The notes beneath the pieces are model-generated. The model saw only the letters and a program-made list of their open reading frames with translations, was not told the DNA's origin and ran no database searches. The position numbers and the translations under genes were made by a program. A DNA stretch of 52,734 bases from Nitrospirota bacterium (GTDB taxonomy: Bacteria; NPL-UPA2; JAADIA01), in assembly GCA_013151555.1 (NCBI GenBank), contig JAADIA010000044.1, positions 1 through 52,734 on the forward strand, read 5' to 3'. Positions 8,573-48,472 of this stretch are shown here, piece after piece; the stretch's first letter is position 1; each line of letters opens with the position of its first letter.

Positions 8573-9133
8573 TCAAGGTAAATCGTGAGAATAAGGAACG
8601 AAGATGGCTGCAGCAACCACTGTCGTCCACAGTCCTTTTTTATCACCGATGGCTGATTGAGTGATATTGCTGGTTCTGACGATCTGGTTATGCATCTTGA
8701 AAATCTCTTTTCGTTCGTCCCAGGCATCGTCGAGATTGAATTCTATCCCCAGGGTGGTAGCCAACATGGTTGCTGCCAGGTCCTCAGCATAATCGCCGGC
8801 CATTACTCCCGTCTGGCCGAAGGAATGATGCTCGCTAAGGTAACCATGTTTATCTTTCCCGGTGGGAATAGCAATACCGATGGAGGCTGCCAGAAGCCGG
8901 TTTGGTTCATTAGTGCTATTCTCACTAAAGACACCGAAGATAATCTCGCCCGGATGCATAAAACCCAGGGCCTTCTTTCCGGGTATCATCTTGCATCCGG
9001 GAGGGAGAATACTGGAGACCCGCACTAAGTTATACCGGGCAATATTGGCTTTCCGGAGAGCCATCTCGAAAGATTGCAGCTTTTCCTTGTGCTTTCCTAC
9101 CCCTTTGGTAAGGAATATTTGCCGGGGAACCAT
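8573..9133 (-). CDS. pdaD: Pyruvoyl-dependent arginine decarboxylase
   Basis: Protein of 186 residues matching pyruvoyl-dependent arginine decarboxylases, which make agmatine from arginine. The proenzyme self-cleaves between adjacent serines; here VRVSSILPPGC places them at residues 40-41, and S41 would become the pyruvoyl group. The conserved downstream block 'GEIIFGVFSENSTNEP' and the GYLSEHHSFGQT segment are present. It starts one base after the small basic protein's stop and precedes agmatinase, forming a two-step arginine-to-putrescine route. This cofactor type is typical of archaea and scattered bacteria, so horizontal history is possible. Confidence 0.93.
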   Translation of the reverse strand: MVPRQIFLTKGVGKHKEKLQSFEMALRKANIARYNLVRVSSILPPGCKMIPGKKALGFMHPGEIIFGVFSENSTNEPNRLLAASIGIAIPTGKDKHGYLSEHHSFGQTGVMAGDYAEDLAATMLATTLGIEFNLDDAWDERKEIFKMHNQIVRTSNITQSAIGDKKGLWTTVVAAAIFVPYSHDLP

Positions 9134-9134
9134 T

Positions 9135-9239
9135 TCAAGTCCCCATCTTTTTTAAACGTTTCTTCAGCTTTTTCTCTTTCTTGCTCAACTTGGATTTCTT
9201 TTTTACTTCGTGGCCGGTCTTCTCCATCTTCCTGGACAT
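9135..9239 (-). CDS. Small lysine-rich protein, 34 aa
   Basis: Open frame of 34 codons with ATG at 9239, preceded by AGGGAGG at good spacing and ending one base before the arginine decarboxylase start. The product (MSRKMEKTGHEV, then Lys-rich) has roughly half its residues basic and no hydrophobic segment. Tight packing between groEL and the decarboxylase gene supports real translation, perhaps coupled to the decarboxylase. Nucleic-acid or ribosome binding is conceivable from charge alone; no family recognised. Confidence 0.55.
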   Translation of the reverse strand: MSRKMEKTGHEVKKKSKLSKKEKKLKKRLKKMGT

Positions 9240-9257
9240 TGGACTAAGCCTCCCTAT

Positions 9258-9318
9258 AACAGAGAGACCAGAAGACAGATATCAGATTTTCTCTGCTCTC
9301 TGCCTTCTGTTCTCTGTT
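9258..9318. repeat. Inverted word repeat of CAGAGAACAGAAG type
   Basis: AACAGAGA at 9258-9265 is complementary to TCTCTGTT at 9311-9318. Both arms continue with loosely periodic AGAAGACAGA / CAGAAGGCAGAGAG words. It lies just downstream of the groEL stop on the minus strand and could fold into a hairpin separating groEL from the small basic gene. Confidence 0.6.
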
Positions 9319-9326
9319 TTTCTTTT

Positions 9327-10964
<1,638 letters not shown>

Positions 10965-10979
10965 TTAATATCACCTCCT

Positions 10980-11267
10980 TTATTTGATAATAGCTAAGAT
11001 GTCTTCTTCTTTCATTATCAGGTGTTCATCTCCATCGACTTTCACCTCCGTTCCCCCGTATTTGCTGAAGAGAACTTTGTCCCCCTTCTTTACTTCCAGA
11101 GGCACAGTCTTGCCGTCTTTTAGCATCCGACCGGGCCCTACAGCGATTACTTCTCCCTCCTGGGGCTTCTCCTTGGCCGTATCCGGAAGAAGAATCCCTC
11201 CTTTGGTCTTCTCCTCCTTCTCCATAGGTTTGACCAACACTCTATCTCCTAAGGGTTGAATAGCCAT
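10980..11267 (-). CDS. groES: Co-chaperonin GroES (Hsp10)
   Basis: GroES of 95 residues, the heptameric lid of the GroEL chamber. [14 protein letters not shown] at the N-terminus, [17 protein letters not shown] (mobile loop region) and [12 protein letters not shown] are diagnostic. I chose the ATG at 11267 because AGGAGGTG lies 9-10 bases ahead; a GTG four codons earlier overlaps that site. First gene of groES-groEL. No CIRCE inverted repeat (TTAGCACTC-N9-GAGTGCTAA) is visible upstream; a sigma-54-type promoter is instead (separate entry). Confidence 0.97.
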
Positions 11268-11317
11268 TTTTCTTTTCACCTCCTCTCAAATTTATCGGTT
11301 CACTATATGTTTATTAT

Positions 11318-11334
11318 AGCAATTTCCGTGCCAA
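11318..11334 (-). promoter_or_regulatory. Sigma-54 promoter upstream of groESL
   Basis: On the minus strand the sequence reads TTGGCACGGAAATTGCT, matching the -24/-12 consensus TGGCACG-N4-TTGC without mismatch. The -12 GC lies about 52 bases from the groES ATG, so transcription would start near 11307 with a leader of about 40 bases. A TATAAT overlaps just downstream (11312-11317) but has no good -35 partner. The strict match and spacing make sigma-54 control likely; no enhancer-binding protein gene or site is identified here. Confidence 0.7.
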
Positions 11335-11388
11335 TCTTGATATGAGCAAGGGGAGAAGAACTCCTTAACCTTCCTAACCAGCAGGGAC

Positions 11389-11580
11389 TCAATAAGTTGC
11401 GGCTAAAATGGTTTTTTTAGAGAATAACCCTTGCTCGATTTGCAGAATAGCCTCTCCCGGGAAAAGTATTTCATTTTGGTAGAGTCTATTTCTTATCTCT
11501 CTTAAAGTCTCCCATTTTGATAAAACGGCAGAAATTTCTTGCCAGAGATTAGGTGATAACGTATAATTACTTATGGGAGA
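11389..11580 (-). pseudogene. Gene remnant, C-terminal fragment without start
   Basis: The 490-base gap between groES and the dehydrogenase gene contains a minus-strand frame that reads like protein (SPNLWQEISAVLSKWETL, then REIRNRLYQNEILFPGEA, ending ILAATY-stop at 11389-11391). No ATG, GTG or TTG exists in this stretch, and the frame runs upstream into the repeat block at 11582-11750 before hitting a stop at 11641-11643. This suggests the 3' end of a gene whose front was lost, possibly when the repeats arrived. Family not recognised; chance open frame remains possible. Confidence 0.4.
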
Positions 11581-27184: not shown

Positions 27185-29893
27185 TCACAGCCTGACCTTC
27201 TTTAATCTCAAGGCGTTGGAAACCACGGAAATAGAGGAAAGGGCCATGGCCGCAGCAGCAATTACCGGACTTAAAAGAAAGCCGTCAAAGGGGTAAAGCA
27301 ACCCGGCGGCAATGGGAATGCCGGTAATGTTATAGCCAAAAGCCCAGCATAGATTCTGTTTAATATTTCTTAAAGTAGCGGCACTTAACTTGTAAGCCTT
27401 GACCACATCAAGAAGATCGCTCTTCATCAAAACAATCTGGGCAGATTCCATGGCCACATCCGTGCCTGCGCCAATGGCTACGCCTACATCCGATTGCATC
27501 AGGGCAGGAGCATCGTTAATGCCGTCGCCGACCATAGCTACCGTATGCCCTTCCTCTTGAAGCCTTTTTACTTCTCTGGCTTTGTCCTGCGGCAAAACCT
27601 CGGCCACCACCCGGTCAATGCTCACAGTGCGGGCAATAGCTTCCGCAGTCTTCCGGTTATCTCCCGTAAGCATAGCTACTTTTATCTTCAATTTGTGAAG
27701 TTCTTTAACCGCTTTCGCACTATTTTCTTTTAAGACATCGGCCACAGCAATAATACCAAGCAGGGTCTTATCCTGAGCGATAAACATCGGGGTCTTCCCC
27801 TCATTTGCCAGGCGGGTAGCATCTTCTTGAGCCACTTTCAAATCTATCTTTTCATCATCCATCAACTTCTGGTTGCCTAAAAATACTTTTGTCTGATTCA
27901 GACTCATTTCTATCCCATGACCGGGGATAGCGTTAAACTCCTTAATTTCCAATAACTCTAACTTTCTCTCCCCGGCCTCGTTGACGATAGCTTCAGCTAA
28001 GGGATGTTCGGATTTTTTCTCGCCGCTGGCCGCAAGCCGGAGAACCTCATCTTCCTTAAGGTCACTAAAGGTAACAATATCGGTAACCCGGGGCTTCCCC
28101 TCGGTAAGCGTTCCTGTCTTATCAAAGACAACAAAATCGATCTTGCGGAAGATCTCTAAGGCTTCAGCGTTCTTAATAAGAATTCCATTCTCCGCTCCTT
28201 TACCGGTTCCCACCATAATGGCGGTAGGGGTAGCCAGTCCCAGGGCACAGGGACAGGCAATAATGAGAACGGAAATTACTACCGTCAGGGTAAAGAGAAA
28301 GGTTCCTCCCACCAGGGTAACCCCAAAAACGGTCCCGGCAAGGGTCCAGATAACGGCAGTAAGGACGGCAACTCCAATTACACCCCAGGTAAAATAACCG
28401 GCAATGATATCAGCCAAGCGGGCAATGGGGGCCTTGGATCCCTGGGCCTCCTCGACCAGCCTGACAATTTGGGCCAGGGCAGTATCCTTACCCACCCTTT
28501 CGGCCCGGAATTTAATGGAACCGGTCTTGTTCAGGGCCGCACCGGTTACTTTAGCGCCGGGATTCTTCTCCACGGGCATGCTCTCTCCCGTTAACATGGA
28601 TTCATCTACAGCAGTCCTTCCCTCAATGACCTCGCCGTCAACGGGTATCTTCTCTCCAGGTTTAACAATGACAATATCTCCGACTTGCACCTCGGAGATG
28701 GGGACCTCTTCCTCAACTCCATCCACTTCGATAATGGCCGTCTTAGGAGCCAAGCCCATCAGTTTCTTTATCGCCTCGGAGGTCTTACCCTTGCTTATCG
28801 CTTCCAAGAACTTCCCTAACAAAATCAAGGCAATAATTACCGCCGCGGTTTCAAAATAAAGGCTGCGTACATACTCCCCACTGGGGTCCCGTCCCAGCAA
28901 TACCAAACCGGCTGCATAAAAACTGTAAAGATAGGCTGCCGCGGTCCCCATGGCGATGAGCGAGTCCATATTAGGGGTCCCTTTAAAGAGATTGGGGAAA
29001 CCGATGCGGTAAAAGTTCCAGCCGGCAATAATCACCGGGATAGATAAAACTACCTGGAACAGAGCAAAGCGGCCCGGGAAATTATCCGGACGTAAAAATC
29101 CCGGCAAAAGGCTGGCGCTGATTACCTCTCCCATAGCCACATACAAGATGGGAAAAGCAAATAAGATCGCCCAGATAAGCTTCTTCTTCAAGGTCCTGAT
29201 TTCCCTTTTCCGGGCCTCTTTCTCCACATCTGCGGCCTCTTCTCCGGTCTGAATAAGTTCGGGCTTATAGCCGGCGGCGGAGATGGCCTTGATTATCTGC
29301 CGGGTGCTGAGCTTGCTCTCATCATAAGAAACCTGGGCGTAGGAGTTGGGAAAGCTGGTCTCTACTTCTTTTACTCCCTCCAGTTTCTCCACCGCTTTCT
29401 TAACCACTTCGGCGCAGTGGTCCGAGCCCATACCGATAACCTTAAATTCTACGGTCTTCTCTCCGGTCGCTTTAACAACCTCATATCCACTGTCCTTGAT
29501 GACCTTTTCAATCTCTTCCGGGCTAACCAAGGCCGTATCATAATCTACCATGGCTTTTTGAGAGGCAAAATTTACCGAGGCCTTGAGAATACCTTTCTTC
29601 TTAGCAAAATTCTTTTCAATTGTCTGGGCACAGGAGGCACAACTCATCCCCCCAATCCTTAATATTGTTCTTTCTTTCTCCCCCAGCACCGAATAGCCGG
29701 CCGACTCCACAGCCTTTACCAGATCCGCCTCTTTCACCTGGGAAGGCTCATATTCTACCGTCGCCTTCTCGGTAGCAAAATTGACGGCCGCTGAGGATAC
29801 TCCTTTCACTGCCTTAAGAGCTTTTTCAATATTAGCGGCACAAGAGGCACAAGTCATACCCTTAATCTTCAAGGTAGTCTTTTGCTCAGCCAT
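27185..29893 (-). CDS. copA: Copper-exporting P1B-type ATPase with three HMA domains
   Basis: ATPase of 902 residues. Two N-terminal HMA domains have intact metal sites (C15-x-x-C18 and C85-x-x-C88). A third HMA-like domain (about 147-212) reads G-M-G-S-D-H-C160, so only one of the two cysteines remains. The membrane metal site is C547-P-C549, typical of Cu(I) pumps. TGES (435-438), the phosphorylated D591 in [11 protein letters not shown] and [16 protein letters not shown] complete the catalytic core. It exports Cu+ from the cytoplasm. Two CsoR-type repressors and an HMA chaperone are encoded elsewhere in the window. GGAGGG precedes the start. Confidence 0.97.
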
Positions 29894-35589: not shown

Positions 35590-35822
35590 TAAATCTAAAA
35601 TCTAAATTTCAAAATCCAAATAAATCGCTAAAGCCCAAACACATGAAGAAAATTCTATAATTTTTTTGACAGCCTGCCTGCCACAGGTAGGGATGAACAG
35701 GATTGACAGGATTGTTTTACTTTTTCTGTAGTTATTAATCTTAATCCCATCTTCATCCTGTGAATCCTGTCAGAATAATTGCAGTTTTTTTATTTGTCAT
35801 TTGGGTTTTGTCCTTTGTCATT
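35590..35822. repeat. Three classes of word repeats with a nested palindrome
   Basis: First, AAATCTAAAATCTAAATTTC words (35591 on). Second, an ACAGGAT pair: GACAG (35668-35672) and GATGAACAGGATTGACAGGA (from 35692), facing TCATCCTGTGAATCCTGTCA (35753 on). The left arm is split by a 19-base imperfect palindrome at 35673-35691 (CCTGCCTG...CAGGTAGG). Third, TGTCATTTGGGTTTTGTCCT (35796 on), which is inside the end of lgt. Confidence 0.75.
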
Positions 35823-36590
35823 CCGTCTCTTTGATGACGATAGAAATCTCATTATCAGAAGGGAGATAACGATGATTAAAATTCCTATTACCTGAGCGGT
35901 TTTAAGAGAGGTCCCCCAGATATAGAGGCTGTCTCCCCGGAAGATTTCCACGAAGAAGCGTATCCCGGAATAGAGAATAAGATATAATAAGAAAAGGTAA
36001 CCATCATACTTCCCCTTCTTCCTCCATTTCCAAAGGAAGAGAAATATGGAGAAATCAAGGAGCATCTCATATAACTCAGTGGGATGGAGAGGCTGGGAAC
36101 CATAGGCAAAGCTCGCAGGGGTCCCCTTGGGAAAGACTATCCCCCAGGGAAGTTGGGTAGGAGTTCCATAAGCCCCTCCAATCAGAAAGCAGCCTATCCT
36201 CCCGATAGCCTGCCCGATAATGAGGGAGGGAGCTAAAGTGTCGGAGAGTTTCCAGAAGGAAATCTTCTGCCTCTTAGCAAACCAGATAGCTGTCAATAAC
36301 CCTCCGATGATACCTCCATGGATAGCCAATCCCCCTTTCCAGATAGAGAAAATTTCCGCCGGGTGGCTTAAATAGTTGCTCAGGTCGTAAAAAATAATAT
36401 AATAGAGGCGAGCTCCGACAATGCCTGCTATTAAAGCATAAAGAGAAAAATTAACTATATTCTCCTCTCCTATTCCTTTTCTCCTGGCTTCCTTTCGAGC
36501 CAAATAAAGCCCGACTATAAAAGCAGTAGCAATCATTACCCCATAAGAGCGGAGAGTAAAATGTCCTAATTTAAAGAGTACCGGATACAT
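35790..36590 (-). CDS. lgt: Prolipoprotein diacylglyceryl transferase
   Basis: Seven-helix membrane enzyme of 266 residues that transfers diacylglycerol from phosphatidylglycerol to the lipobox cysteine of prolipoproteins such as LptE. LAIHGG (89-93), R131 in the signature GQAIGRIGCFLIGGAYG, and HPTELYE (169-175) are the conserved residues. The final residues KRRNDKGQNPNDK and the stop are encoded by a TGACAAA-type word repeat, so the natural C-terminus was probably shorter. It begins six bases after the csoR stop. Confidence 0.95.
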   Translation of the reverse strand: MYPVLFKLGHFTLRSYGVMIATAFIVGLYLARKEARRKGIGEENIVNFSLYALIAGIVGARLYYIIFYDLSNYLSHPAEIFSIWKGGLAIHGGIIGGLLTAIWFAKRQKISFWKLSDTLAPSLIIGQAIGRIGCFLIGGAYGTPTQLPWGIVFPKGTPASFAYGSQPLHPTELYEMLLDFSIFLFLWKWRKKGKYDGYLFLLYLILYSGIRFFVEIFRGDSLYIWGTSLKTAQVIGILIIVISLLIMRFLSSSKRRNDKGQNPNDK

Positions 36591-36596
36591 ATTTTT

Positions 36597-36866
36597 CTAC
36601 CTTATGAATTTATTAACGGTATCTAAAAGCTCATCTATCTTGTCCCGGCTATTGTCCTTCTTAATAGCTTCGCTAACGCAGGTCTCAATATGTTTCTTCA
36701 TTATAATGAGGGCCGTCTGGTCAAGCGCCCGTTTTACCGCGGTAATCTGATTGATGACATCAATGCAGTACCTTTCCTTATCTATCATCCGCTCGATTCC
36801 TCCCACCTGACCGGCAATCTTCTTCAGACGCTCCAGAGCATCCCTCTTAGTATCCTCATTAATCAC
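36597..36866 (-). CDS. csoR: CsoR-family copper-sensing repressor (copy 1)
   Basis: All-helical repressor of 89 residues. The Cu(I) ligand set C34, H59, C63 (YCIDVINQ, KKHIETC) is complete, which separates CsoR from nickel (RcnR) or formaldehyde (FrmR) relatives. Copper binding releases DNA. The GTG start has GGAGG six bases upstream. It is nearly identical in length and ligands to the copy at 46504-46773. No G/C-tract operator is visible in its own upstream region. It precedes lgt. Confidence 0.92.
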   Translation of the reverse strand: MINEDTKRDALERLKKIAGQVGGIERMIDKERYCIDVINQITAVKRALDQTALIIMKKHIETCVSEAIKKDNSRDKIDELLDTVNKFIR

Positions 36867-36990
36867 TGCTTTCCTCCCGGAAAAACATTCATTAGACCTG
36901 GATCACAGGCTAAAACGAGTTTCACGATAAATGTCTGTTATTTATTTCCCTAAGAACTTTAAACTTCTTCCTCTTATCTCTTCTTAATAA

Positions 36991-44683: not shown

Positions 44684-44860
44684 TTAATGTTGCTTATGGC
44701 TCTTATGCTTTTCCTTCCGCAGATACTTTTCCGGGTCTTCTTCAAACTCCGACTGGCATTCCGGACAACAGAGATAATAAGTCTCACTCTTATATTCTAC
44801 TTTGGCATAGGCTTTATTCCTGTTGATTTTTCTGCCGCAAACCGGGTCATGATAAAACAT
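44684..44860 (-). CDS. YHS-domain metal-binding protein, 58 aa
   Basis: Stand-alone YHS domain. MFYHDPVCGRKIN begins with the D-P-V-C motif (C8), and YYLCCPECQSEFEEDPEKYL supplies C31, C32 and C35. A His/Lys-rich tail (KHKSHKQH) may also bind metal. The ATG at 44860 uses AAGGAG that belongs to a hairpin repeat (44868-44963). YHS/TRASH domains are linked to heavy-metal binding. First-pass gene finders may miss it because of its length. Confidence 0.88.
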   Translation of the reverse strand: MFYHDPVCGRKINRNKAYAKVEYKSETYYLCCPECQSEFEEDPEKYLRKEKHKSHKQH

Positions 44861-44867
44861 AGCTTAT

Positions 44868-44963
44868 CTCCTTTTAATGAGCACATCACTTAGTGCCAGC
44901 TAAGTGATAAGTGCGAATTAACTCCGTAGCTTAAGGGGAAATTGTCGGAGAGAATTTCCCCTT
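44868..44963 (-). repeat. Composite hairpin repeat with embedded ribosome-binding site
   Basis: Read on the minus strand, CTCACTTGCTTGGAC leads into the 11-bp hairpin AAGGGGAAATT/AATTTCCCCTT (44953-44963 and 44933-44943, nine-base loop), then TTAATTCGCACTTATCA, a stem CTTAG...CTAAG, TGATGTGCTCATTAA and AAGGAG. Order, spacing and most bases match the element at 11643-11750, apart from the centre of the second hairpin. It ends eight bases before the YHS start at 44860. Confidence 0.88.
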
Positions 44964-44986
44964 GTCCAAGCAAGTGAGTAACATCA

Positions 44987-45316
44987 TCAACAACAACCTC
45001 CCCTCTTCTTAGGTTGTTGTTGAGGCTGGTCTTTAGGCATATACTTCATAGGCTCTTTATCAAAATTCTCCTTGCAGGCAGGAGCGCAGAAATAAAAGGT
45101 CTGTCCCATATGCCAACTGCTCACCGGCGAGGTTTTGGGATCAACGAATGTCCCACAGACCGGGTCTTTCACCATCTGAGAACCGCCTGTTGACCCGGAA
45201 CCAACCCCGGGCCCGGAATGTCCTCCCTGTCCCACCATGCTATGGCCACCGTGACCTCTTCTCATCATCCAGAAGAATAAACCCCCGATAATGACAATCC
45301 ATAAAATAGTACTCAT
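44987..45316 (-). CDS. Membrane-anchored YHS-domain protein
   Basis: Protein of 109 residues. An N-terminal transmembrane helix (about 2-17) is followed by RRGHGGHSMVGQGGHSG, a His/Gly-rich linker, then a YHS domain with DPVCG (C54) and FYFCAPACKENFDKEPMKYM (C77, C81). It ends GGCC. The layout suggests a metal-binding site held at the membrane. I start at 45316 because AGGAGG, supplied by the repeat at 45327-45376, lies nine bases upstream. Confidence 0.88.
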   Translation of the reverse strand: MSTILWIVIIGGLFFWMMRRGHGGHSMVGQGGHSGPGVGSGSTGGSQMVKDPVCGTFVDPKTSPVSSWHMGQTFYFCAPACKENFDKEPMKYMPKDQPQQQPKKRGGCC

Positions 45317-45326
45317 CTTCATTCAC

Positions 45327-45376
45327 CTCCTTAATGAACACATCACTTAGTGAAACTAAGTGATAAGTGTGAATTA
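45327..45376 (-). repeat. Hairpin repeat with embedded ribosome-binding site
   Basis: On the minus strand: TAATTCACACTTATCA, stem CTTAG-TTTCA-CTAAG, TGATGTGTTCATTAAGGAG. It matches the second hairpin of the element at 44868 with three or so changes in the arms. AAGGAGG is the ribosome-binding site of the YHS gene at 45316. The first hairpin (AAGGGGAAATT) is absent here. Confidence 0.85.
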
Positions 45377-45417
45377 CCCGATACTTGACCTCCTTTTGCC
45401 TTTTGAGTTACCGGAAT

Positions 45418-45918
45418 TCATTTAATAACCTTGAGAACAGCTTCTAAGACCGGCTTTGCCACAGAAGGATCCACTGCCAGCCAGATAACCTTCTTGGAGT
45501 CAAGATAAAAGTAATGTATCTGACCAAAACCCAATACAGAATATATCTTTCTTCTTTCCTCCTTGAGTTCCCGAAAATGACCAAAACTCTTAGTCCCTTT
45601 CCCGATCTTCTCCCGCATCAGGTCGATCTGCTGCCGGGCTTGCTCCTCATTTTCAAATTCGGCAACATAAAGCATGGCCTTTGCCTGGCCACTTTCATAA
45701 TGCGCCACATAGCCGTTCTTTACCGCGATTTCCTTGCCGTGCAGTTTACTAATCTTAGCCATAGCATCTTTCCCCTGGGAAGAATGCCGAAGTTGTAAAC
45801 CTGCGATTTCGGCAGGAATCGTAAACTGTTCCGTTTTGCTATCAGCAGGAATAGAAAAAAGATAAGCTGCTCCAAGTAAAGTCAGAATAGTTATAGCTAA
45901 AGATTTCTTCCTGAACAT
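45418..45918 (-). CDS. Exported protein of unknown function
   Basis: Protein of 166 residues with a signal peptide (about 6-22, cleavage near PADS). The mature part alternates strands and helices (AHYESGQAKAMLYVAEFENE, EEQARQQIDLMREKIG) and lacks cysteines. I do not recognise a family. GAGGGAG precedes the ATG at 45918. Its position between YHS genes on the same strand suggests a periplasmic partner in metal handling, which is inference. Confidence 0.72.
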   Translation of the reverse strand: MFRKKSLAITILTLLGAAYLFSIPADSKTEQFTIPAEIAGLQLRHSSQGKDAMAKISKLHGKEIAVKNGYVAHYESGQAKAMLYVAEFENEEQARQQIDLMREKIGKGTKSFGHFRELKEERRKIYSVLGFGQIHYFYLDSKKVIWLAVDPSVAKPVLEAVLKVIK

Positions 45919-45966
45919 AGACACATCTCCCTCTAAGATAATTTTACCATAAATAAATAAAGCAAG

Positions 45967-46200
45967 CTAATGCTTCATATCATGGCAACTTTTGGGTGCC
46001 CGGACATCATCTCCCCCAGCTAACCGCTCAAGAAAGCTTTTATCTTTCCCTTTTCCGGAAAACCGTTCGGGCTTCTCCTCAAAGGTCGCCCGGCAAGCGG
46101 GACAATCAAAATAATAAGTACGTTTGCCATATATAGAAAAATACCTGCTATGTTTACTCACCTTAGCCGCACACACCGGATCTCGAGTTTTTCCAAACAT
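45967..46200 (-). CDS. YHS-domain protein, 77 aa
   Basis: Small YHS protein beginning MFGKTRDPVC (C10) with YYFDCPACRATFEEKPERF (C33, C36) and a polar tail ending CHDMKH. GGGAGG precedes the ATG. The domain is the third of four in this cluster and the least canonical: VCAAKV replaces VCGM. Metal binding is inferred from the family. Confidence 0.85.
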   Translation of the reverse strand: MFGKTRDPVCAAKVSKHSRYFSIYGKRTYYFDCPACRATFEEKPERFSGKGKDKSFLERLAGGDDVRAPKSCHDMKH

Positions 46201-46225
46201 ATCCTCACCTCCCTAAAGGAGGGCA

Positions 46226-46251
46226 GGTCCCCCTCCCTTCCGGAGGGGACC
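46226..46251 (-). other. Intercistronic GC-rich hairpin
   Basis: GGTCCCCCTCC (46226-46236) pairs with GGAGGGGACC (46242-46251), with one bulged base and a very short loop, between two YHS genes. Likely an RNA-processing or partial-termination hairpin; no T-run on the minus strand. Confidence 0.5.
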
Positions 46252-46269
46252 CGCTTCCCTTCTGTAACC

Positions 46270-46458
46270 CTACATGTGGCAACTATCGCCTTTCTCCTCT
46301 TCTTCAGTACTCATATACTTCATAGGATTCTGGTCAAACTTCTCCTTACATCCCTGAGCACAGAAGTAGAAAGTTTTGCCCATATGCTCGCTGGTAGCTA
46401 CGGCACTATCGGCATCCATATCCATCCCACATACCGGATCCTTTACCTGCTCACCCAT
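46270..46458 (-). CDS. YHS-domain protein, 62 aa
   Basis: Canonical YHS protein: VKDPVCGMDMDADSAVATSE (C10) and KTFYFCAQGCKEKFDQNPMKYM (C33, C37), then an acidic tail ending DSCHM. I start at 46458, where GGGAGG lies eight bases upstream; a GTG at 46467 overlaps that site. It is the first gene after csoR copy 2 and therefore probably copper-induced. Confidence 0.87.
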   Translation of the reverse strand: MGEQVKDPVCGMDMDADSAVATSEHMGKTFYFCAQGCKEKFDQNPMKYMSTEEEEKGDSCHM

Positions 46459-46503
46459 ATCATCCACCTCCCTTCTCTCGTTATAGCGTCAAATACCATC
46501 TCA

Positions 46504-46773
46504 TTATCTTATAAACTTATCAACAGTATCTAAGAGTTCATCTATCCCGTCCCGGCTGTTATCCTCCCGGATGGCTTCGCTGACACAAGTTTCGATATGT
46601 TTCTTCATTATAATAAGGGCCATCCGGTCAAGAGCTCGCTTTGCTGCGGTAATTTGATTTACGATGTCAATACAATATTTTTCCTTATCCACCATTCTGC
46701 CGATTCCTCCTATCCGGCCGGCTATTTTCTTCAGCCGCCCGAGAGCAATCATTTTTGTCTCTTCATCTACCAT
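46504..46773 (-). CDS. csoR: CsoR-family copper-sensing repressor (copy 2)
   Basis: Repressor of 89 residues, very close to the copy at 36597-36866, with the same ligands C34, H59 and C63. The ATG at 46773 has GGAGGAAGG upstream; an ATG at 46791 lies on that site. It leads the YHS gene group and has its own promoter plus a TACC-N14-GGTA operator (46814-46871), so it should repress itself and the YHS genes until copper rises. Confidence 0.93.
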   Translation of the reverse strand: MVDEETKMIALGRLKKIAGRIGGIGRMVDKEKYCIDIVNQITAAKRALDRMALIIMKKHIETCVSEAIREDNSRDGIDELLDTVDKFIR

Positions 46774-46813
46774 AGCCTTTCCTTCCTCCATTCCTCATCC
46801 TCAATCGGCTTAT

Positions 46814-46871
46814 TACCCCCTACCCCTACATGGTATGATAAAAGTTTACCACTTCCCCCGAAACTTGTCAA
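46814..46871 (-). promoter_or_regulatory. csoR-YHS promoter with CsoR-type operator
   Basis: On the minus strand TTGACA (46866-46871), a 17-base spacer and TAAACT (46843-46848) form a strong sigma-70 promoter starting near 46836. Directly downstream, the sequence 46814-46835 begins TACC, ends GGTA and holds two C-tracts (CCCCC and CCCC). This is the layout of CsoR operators. Repressor bound there would block initiation. Confidence 0.72.
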
Positions 46872-46895: not shown

Positions 46896-46958
46896 TTGAC
46901 AAAAAAGGGGGATATGATAAAATCCAATTGCAACTAAAACTCAATAGCAACTAAAAGG
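46896..46958 (+). promoter_or_regulatory. fur promoter with repeated half-sites
   Basis: TTGACA (46896-46901), a 16-base spacer and TAAAAT (46918-46923) start transcription toward fur. Just downstream, GCAACTAAAA occurs twice, 17 bases apart (46930 and 46947). This resembles the half-site of the palindrome at 47406-47426, so autoregulation by Fur is likely. Confidence 0.6.
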
Positions 46959-46964
46959 CATTCG

Positions 46965-47390
46965 ATGAGAATAGAGGAAGATAAACTAAGGGACTATTTG
47001 AAGTCGAAGGGTTTAAAGTTTACCCCGGAAAGACAGCTTATTCTGAAAGAAGTGTTTTCTATCCACCGCCATTTTGAGGTGGACGACCTTTTTATCCGCA
47101 TGCGGCGCCGGGATAATCGTATTTCCCGGTCCACTCTCTATCGCACCCTAAGGCTTTTGGTGGAATGCGGCCTTCTCAGGGAAGTTCTCTTCGAAGAGAG
47201 GCATAGCCATTATGAGCATATCCTGGGGCACGAACATCACGACCACCTTCTCTGTCTGGGATGTGGACAGGTAATAGAGTTTAGCAATAGTTCTATAGAG
47301 AAGCTTCAAAGCAAGGTGTGCGGGGAGTATAAATTTCAGCCCCAAGGGCACCGGCTTCAGATTACGGGCTACTGCAGGAAGTGCCGGTAA
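46965..47390 (+). CDS. fur: Fur-family metal-responsive regulator
   Basis: Regulator of 141 residues with an N-terminal winged helix (KFTPERQLILKEV, ISRSTLYRTLRLLVECGLL) and a C-terminal dimer/metal domain: HEHHDHLLCLGCGQVIEF and GYCRKCR provide C97-x2-C100 and C137-x2-C140, the structural zinc site. Followed directly by an FTR1-type iron permease, so iron-sensing is more likely than zinc or peroxide sensing. It diverges from the csoR-YHS group. Confidence 0.93.
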   Translation: MRIEEDKLRDYLKSKGLKFTPERQLILKEVFSIHRHFEVDDLFIRMRRRDNRISRSTLYRTLRLLVECGLLREVLFEERHSHYEHILGHEHHDHLLCLGCGQVIEFSNSSIEKLQSKVCGEYKFQPQGHRLQITGYCRKCR

Positions 47391-47455: not shown

Positions 47456-48472
47456 ATGTTATCAAGTCTGTTAATCACCCTCCGGGAAGGAATAGAAGCC
47501 GCCTTAATCGTAGGGATTATCATCACTTATCTCACTAAGATTAATAAATCCATCTACATCAAGGATATCGTTCTGGGAATAGCCCTGGCTATCCTGGCAA
47601 GCATCGGGACAGCCTGGCTCTTTGCGAGGATTATGGGTGGATTCAGCGGTCGGAGCGAGGATATCTTCGAGGGAGTAATCATGCTCCTGGCCGTCTCCAT
47701 TCTTACTTATATGATTATCTGGATGCATCACCAGGCAAAAAATATCGCCGGGAATATCCGGGAACAAGTAAATGCTTACCTCAGCCATAAGCAAATCTAT
47801 GGTTTAGTCTTTTTGGGTTTCATCTCCGTCTATCGGGAAGGGGTTGAGACCGTCCTCTTCTTCGCTGCCCTTCGGGCGGTGGATGCGGCCTCCTGGTTAG
47901 GAGGCGTGCTGGGGCTGGTCCTGGCAATTACTTTGGCTATCCTCTTTTTCCAGACTACCCGACATTTCTCTTTGAGGTTATTCTTCCAATTCACAGGACT
48001 CTTCATCATCATCATCGCTGCCGGACTCTTCGCCCACGGCATCCATGATCTGCAGCAAGCTGAGGTCATTCCCATAGTGAAGGAACATCTATTTGATATT
48101 AACCCTACTATTACTTACGGGAAGACAAAAAAGATAGACGCTTTTCTTTCCCAATCTGACTGGCAGCAAAAAATACTTAAGAGACCCGAAGGAAAGGAAA
48201 AACTTATTCTTCTCCAGGAACTCATCCGGAACAATGGTGTTTATCGAAGCAAGAAGTATAAACCTTATAAGAGCCTCATCCAAGAAGGTTTGGTAGAAGT
48301 AAAAAGCCCCATCCGTTTAGCTTTTCATGAAAACGGGACCGGGGGCAGTTTCCTAAAAGCTCTCTTCGGCTACAATGGCAACCCTTCCCTGATAGAGTTT
48401 CTTGCTTATCTCCTTTATTACCTCGGCGTCTATGGGTTGATAAGATTGAGCCTGCACCGCTTGGACCAGTAA
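47456..48472 (+). CDS. FTR1-family iron permease
   Basis: Membrane protein of 338 residues with about seven helices. Two iron-binding R-E-x-x-E motifs are present: REGIE (10-14) and REGVE (127-131). This is the FTR1/EfeU family, which imports iron, usually with an oxidase or extra periplasmic partners; none is seen here. A soluble loop of about 85 residues (about 215-300) lies before the last helix. It directly follows fur and a candidate Fur box, consistent with iron-repressed import. GGAGAGGAG precedes the ATG. Confidence 0.92.
   Translation: MLSSLLITLREGIEAALIVGIIITYLTKINKSIYIKDIVLGIALAILASIGTAWLFARIMGGFSGRSEDIFEGVIMLLAVSILTYMIIWMHHQAKNIAGNIREQVNAYLSHKQIYGLVFLGFISVYREGVETVLFFAALRAVDAASWLGGVLGLVLAITLAILFFQTTRHFSLRLFFQFTGLFIIIIAAGLFAHGIHDLQQAEVIPIVKEHLFDINPTITYGKTKKIDAFLSQSDWQQKILKRPEGKEKLILLQELIRNNGVYRSKKYKPYKSLIQEGLVEVKSPIRLAFHENGTGGSFLKALFGYNGNPSLIEFLAYLLYYLGVYGLIRLSLHRLDQ

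Follow-up and report, generated by a model that had tools for sequence, protein, structure and literature searches.

A CsoR-headed cluster of four small YHS proteins in a Nitrospirota bacterium: an unusual arrangement of copper-locus components

Several described systems bear on small YHS or TRASH proteins and on metal homeostasis. First, the archaeal copTMA locus encodes a regulator (CopT), a small TRASH chaperone (CopM) and a pump (CopA) (PMC5328820). Second, paired chaperones of Halobacterium buffer copper and hand it on, together with a pump and a regulator (PMC3551603). Third, the YHS domain of an M. phlei cyclase mediates the response to Cu and not to other metals tested, an Asp and three Cys residues being the proposed Cu ligands (PMC4626032). 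Fourth, FetA, a membrane protein encoded in the iron-uptake cluster fetMP-fetABCDEF of Campylobacter jejuni, contains a YHS domain along with DUF2318, and no CsoR is reported in the available part of the source (PMC10783030). Finally, a 2012 survey of mer operons, the text of which does not mention CsoR, recorded stand-alone TRASH genes in archaeal operons only and never in bacterial ones (PMC3466566). A literature search returned no paper joining the YHS domain, copper and CsoR.

The locus described here is similar to copTMA in comprising a regulator, small TRASH/YHS proteins and a pump, but CsoR replaces the HTH-TRASH regulator CopT, four YHS proteins replace CopM, and the pump is not adjacent. 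It may also be compared with the copper circuit of Halobacterium salinarum, in which several chaperones buffer copper and deliver it to one pump, although the regulator is different. With the C. jejuni cluster, as far as the source is available, it shares a YHS domain next to iron-uptake genes and also thioredoxins.

Gene content and control region

The analysed stretch of DNA, hereafter the window, comprises 52,734 nt (positions 1-52,734 of contig JAADIA010000044.1, assembly GCA_013151555.1) and belongs to a Nitrospirota bacterium (GTDB NPL-UPA2; JAADIA01) with a genome of 1.81 Mb, 94% complete. Six genes on the minus strand (44684-46773) follow one another in the transcription order csoR, YHS62, YHS77, the gene of a 168 aa exported protein, YHS109 and YHS58, separated by 45, 69, 42, 101 and 126 bp, respectively. 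The four YHS genes are thus located on one strand downstream of csoR, inside 1.8 kb. The preliminary description of this DNA had listed four distinct YHS proteins of 58, 109, 77 and 62 aa in 2.1 kb; these sizes were reproduced from the starts with the best Shine-Dalgarno sites (which also set the CsoR start at 46773), and all four proteins score above the curated cut-off of the YHS profile (Pfam PF04945, 30.3 bits). Profile scores and Shine-Dalgarno sites together rule out chance open reading frames.

YHS62 (46270-46458, minus strand, 56.2 bits) is a small, presumably cytosolic protein with an SCHM end. YHS77 (45967-46200, minus strand, 35.1 bits) is divergent and ends in SCHDMKH. YHS109 (44987-45316, minus strand, 45.9 bits) consists of one transmembrane (TM) segment, a His/Gly linker, the YHS domain and a CC end, while YHS58 (44684-44860, minus strand, 48.4 bits) carries the motifs INR and LCCPxCQ and ends in a tail rich in His. 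Each of the four has 4 to 5 Cys residues and a His-bearing tail. According to the alignment, the proposed Asp and three Cys ligands are in place in YHS58, YHS62 and YHS109, whereas YHS77 has Asp at the position of the canonical second Cys (FDC versus FC) and a Cys one residue later. The YHS domain of YHS109 is probably on the cytosolic face, since the single N-terminal hydrophobic stretch is followed by two Arg residues (positive-inside rule). Among PDB sequences, the YHS proteins matched a phenol hydroxylase component and otherwise nothing above chance level.

A palindromic element of 45 bases (ATCACTTAG...CTAAGTGAT) is present in two copies (44868-44930 and 45325-45385), in the spacers on either side of YHS109; it might represent a repeat, a weak terminator or a site of processing. 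As it occupies the last two spacers, it is uncertain whether the six genes share one transcript.

The CsoR-family repressor (46504-46773, minus strand; 89 aa if translation begins at the ATG preceded by the best Shine-Dalgarno site, or 95 aa if it begins at the upstream ATG at 46791) matches PF02583 with 85.2 bits (cut-off 22.8 bits), and the FrmR, RcnR and RicR models all score far below their cut-offs. The closest solved structure is 2hh7 (E 4e-16), which together with 4m1p and 4adz, all of them copper-sensitive repressors, makes up the best structure matches. The Cys-His-Cys residues of CsoR proteins form the Cu(I) site. The Tyr-Cys, His and Cys of this site are aligned between the repressor and 2hh7 and 4m1p, in agreement with its earlier classification as copper-type.

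The candidate csoR promoter (TTGACA-17-TAAACT with TG before the second hexamer; 46843-46871, minus strand) is a consensus match only, at 10 of 12 positions. It stands back to back (46871-46843) with the promoter-like site of fur (46896-46923). Between csoR and this promoter, downstream of the latter, there is a candidate CsoR operator TACC-N7-GGTA (46821-46835), with spacing equal to that of CATACCATAGGAGGGTATG, which is present twice upstream of csoR in a CsoR-CopA-YHS locus of another bacterium (L020). The pattern is not enriched genome-wide (16 sites versus 18 for the reversed control); therefore, the site is regarded as a candidate only. An attempt to derive a genome-wide CsoR regulon from the pattern failed, the sites being equal in number to the control, and upstream of copA no good site of this type was found.

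The CopA pump and relatives of the YHS proteins

No Cu(I) ATPase was found in the CsoR cluster itself. The window does encode, at a distance of 15 kb and on the same strand as the cluster, a CopA-type Cu(I) ATPase with three HMA domains and a CPC motif (27185-29893, minus strand), which matches PF00122, PF00702 and, in three stretches, PF00403. The preliminary description had overlooked this pump, the probable partner of the YHS cluster. The copA gene adjoins a gene for an ICMT-like methyltransferase, as in genome G190, and in L020 a YHS gene is found between the two. A second CsoR (open frame 36600-36902, minus strand; PF02583, 96.2 bits), 77% identical to the first, adjoins Lgt (35790-36590); in G190, G173 and G291, Lgt likewise has YHS/CopA or a member of the exported-protein family in its vicinity. 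Two CcdA-TlpA pairs are located at 48.5-52.3 kb. In G291, CcdA, TlpA, Lgt, a class I methyltransferase and a multicopper oxidase are encoded around the YHS and CopA genes; this likeness of content suggests that the window and G291 represent one type of copper island, although the gene order differs.

The YHS search of the whole genome gave five matches: the four proteins of the cluster and one on another contig, in a mercury locus, which is below the PF04945 cut-off in the genome search, though the whole protein passes. On contig C40 (L115) of this genome, genes for CsoR, MerT, a MerA-like reductase and a 137 aa double YHS/TRASH protein stand in a row (8872-11559). Eight other genomes of the phylum, which are smaller and in some cases incomplete, yielded neither YHS nor the exported protein; hence, the cluster was gained in this bacterium or lost in its relatives.

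In other phyla, YHS genes were found in at least 64 of 121 Chloroflexota genomes. Among the matches listed, three small YHS genes lie near a YHS-CopA gene in Chloroflexota genomes G235, G283, G199, G176, G189 and G291, and loci of this composition, extending over about 5-13 kb, recur. Omnitrophota multi-YHS loci were found in G010, G113 and G137. Thus YHS genes of relatives are not only scattered singly, a result that would have spoken against the preliminary description: single genes are frequent, yet copper clusters with several YHS genes occur as well. CsoR is present in G113; in the fetched stretches of G235, G283, G291 and G189 it was not found. Among the matches listed from 145 Omnitrophota and 121 Chloroflexota genomes, no second locus was seen to hold four separate, small YHS genes within 2 kb. 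In one Chloroflexota genome (G234:C54:159754-160365), four YHS domains stand in tandem in one open frame of 602 aa.

Among the scoring loci found with YHS62 and YHS109, YHS is fused to CopA in 22 of 79, and CsoR occurs inside the locus in 6 of 79 versus 1.8 expected at the CsoR density of the genome that carries the window. In 51 short YHS loci (149 kb, two other phyla) CsoR is nearby in four, versus 0.25 expected at that same density. YHS domains occur elsewhere, too: beside FTR1, beside MerA, and in enzymes without known link to copper.

A tree of 109 YHS domains (46 columns; many forks open) placed YHS58 in a clade with one YHS protein each from G235, G283, G189 and G291 (support 100/97); in the data gathered, this subtype is limited to these four Chloroflexota multi-YHS loci with YHS-CopA. 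YHS109 groups with the YHS protein of the CsoR-CopA operon in L020 (support 97/95), and its layout is the same in L020 (55% identity over 108 columns) and L018, and similar, without the CC end, in L045. YHS62 belongs to the same larger group with weaker support; it is 57% identical to the YHS protein ending in GHCC that follows and adjoins CopA in L010. YHS77 forms a long branch without a close relative. Local duplication of one YHS gene was ruled out, the four being in different clades, within the limits of a short domain and many open forks. These groupings of YHS58, YHS109 and YHS62 indicate that the set combines YHS lineages that are found in copper loci elsewhere.

Two types of loci are closest to the cluster. 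In L020 (bacterium HyVt-354), the genes for CsoR, CopA, a TM-His/Gly-YHS-CC protein and an ICMT-like methyltransferase follow one another, and an operator-like repeat has the spacing of the candidate operator described above; unlike L020, the window has its CopA 15 kb off, four YHS proteins and the additional exported protein. The Chloroflexota loci of G235, G283, G291 and G189 resemble it in small YHS proteins, the INR/LCC subtype among them, and in the proximity of a CopA gene, but contain three small YHS each, with genes across about 5-13 kb, a CopA carrying its own YHS domain, and no CsoR in the stretches fetched. Four distinct YHS proteins under CsoR without a pump were not seen elsewhere in the searched data, the components and the CsoR-CopA-YHS sets being known or recurrent. 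The earlier statement that no system of such composition has been described therefore holds, within the searches made, for this precise combination, but not in a wider sense, since multi-YHS copper loci recur in other phyla. As the same pieces are found there beside copper pumps, we regard the cluster as an unusual arrangement of a known kind and not as a new kind of system.

Copper buffering and relay versus other roles

We consider it rather probable that the cluster is a copper buffer and relay, switched by CsoR and serving the nearby CopA. A rise in cytosolic Cu(I) would lead to its binding by CsoR through Cys-His-Cys, release of the operator and expression of the YHS genes. In the cytosol, YHS58, YHS62 and YHS77 would bind Cu(I) via the Asp and three Cys residues and the His/Cys tails, thus buffering it, while YHS109, tethered by one N-terminal helix, would pass Cu(I) to CopA; the exported protein would act outside the membrane, perhaps on exported copper or on haem-protein assembly. 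The copper function, already suggested in the preliminary description, is supported by the match of the CsoR ligands and by the presence of relatives of three YHS proteins and of the exported protein in CopA loci. Several features speak against the relay model: the cluster itself contains no ATPase, the operator pattern is no more frequent than its control and has no good site upstream of copA, the ligand set of YHS77 is incomplete, the palindromic spacers could split the transcript, and YHS domains are also found beside FTR1 and MerA and in enzymes not known to be linked to copper.

The cluster without a pump, coding for four small Cys-containing proteins with His-bearing tails, might instead be mainly a metallothionein-like copper store, or sponge, made as copper rises and lacking directed hand-off; in Halobacterium, the abundance of metallochaperones itself buffers copper (PMC3551603). 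Such a role is possible but unlikely, given that the four YHS proteins represent distinct lineages and not copies of one, that YHS109 is membrane-tethered, and that YHS relatives adjoin CopA or are fused to it, which fits delivery.

Divergently from csoR, genes for a Fur-family regulator (46965-47390, plus strand; PF01475, 110.1 bits) and an FTR1/EfeU-like iron permease (47456-48472, plus strand; PF03239, 143.8 bits) are encoded, so that this part of the earlier description was confirmed by Pfam. A direct repeat (TAAAATCCAATTGCAAC / TAAAACTCAATAGCAAC, 46918-46951) at the fur promoter-like site is possibly a Fur autoregulation box. This neighbourhood raises the question of an iron or mixed iron-copper role together with Fur-FTR1, for instance as an accessory of iron uptake. 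In two Chloroflexota loci (L019 and L023) a YHS gene directly follows FTR1, and matching by coordinates placed YHS and FTR1 on one contig, no more than about 6 kb apart, in at least four of the 53 Chloroflexota genomes that have FTR1 (G013, from which L019 comes, and at least three more: G189, G176 and G218); the fetMP cluster of C. jejuni, in the part of the source available, likewise includes a YHS domain in FetA (PMC10783030). Nevertheless, we consider an iron role improbable: the YHS strand is headed by CsoR and not Fur, and Fur-FTR1 has a promoter-like site of its own. YHS58 has its highest raw identity to the L019 domain (59%), yet in the tree it groups with YHS proteins of CopA loci and not with L019 or L023. 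Finally, no P19/FetP or DUF2318 (FetA) domain, as a fetMP-type cluster has beside FTR1, was found in the adjacent genes scanned. The iron cross-talk proposed earlier thus retains the two Chloroflexota neighbourhoods in its favour and has the separate promoter-like site against it, and we regard the case for it as weak.

The CsoR-MerT-MerA-YHS/TRASH set of contig C40 means that YHS and CsoR pair with mercury, too, in this bacterium, but it is very improbable that the CsoR of the cluster senses a non-copper ligand (sulfur species, nickel, formaldehyde) and that the YHS set handles mercury, zinc or nickel, as the CsoR ligands match those of copper CsoR, the best solved matches are copper sensors, and the FrmR, RcnR and RicR models fall far below their cut-offs.

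The exported protein and the significance of the locus

The fourth gene of the cluster encodes a 168 aa exported or membrane-anchored protein (45418-45924, minus strand) with an N-terminal hydrophobic stretch. It has no match in Pfam or NCBIfam and was not found in the genome-contig and plasmid collections searched. Homologs in Chloroflexota rule out an orphan: a profile search revealed nine in eight of 400 genomes of this phylum. The gene of a clear homolog in G190 (E 1.2e-18) follows those for CopA and YHS and precedes Lgt, while most of the others adjoin CcmE/CcmF. The neighbours in G173, G291, G292, G200 and G507 are cytochrome c maturation genes, partly assigned by eye; those confirmed by Pfam are CcmE, CcmF and CcmH in G173, CcmE in G292 and CcmF in G507. 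In several Chloroflexota (L182-L190, L191-L197), the family is directly beside CcmE. The family might represent a cytochrome c maturation factor not yet recognised as such, and an outer-face role in the assembly of copper or haem proteins would be our guess. The structure predicted from the single sequence (mean pLDDT 66) is similar to sandwiches of the Mog1/PsbP/DcrB/LpqN-like kind, with Z 9.5 at best, and Foldseek returned no match to it under E 0.001; this likeness was too weak, and assigning a function from the fold was dropped.

Returning to the copper relay, a bolder and quite unlikely version of it would be a division of labour between the YHS lineages (cytosolic capture, membrane-face delivery to CopA and a third target), with the exported protein linking copper export to the maturation of cytochrome c or cupredoxins, in a type of copper island that unrelated phyla have in common.

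Small YHS proteins often accompany copper pumps but have been little studied, and only one report of a direct copper response of the YHS domain was found (PMC4626032). The locus offers four natural YHS variants, one of them membrane-tethered, together with a likely copper sensor, so that it becomes testable whether such proteins act as copper buffers, as carriers to CopA or in both ways. In addition, the locus draws attention to an exported-protein family, outside Pfam and NCBIfam, that is common to copper and cytochrome c maturation loci.
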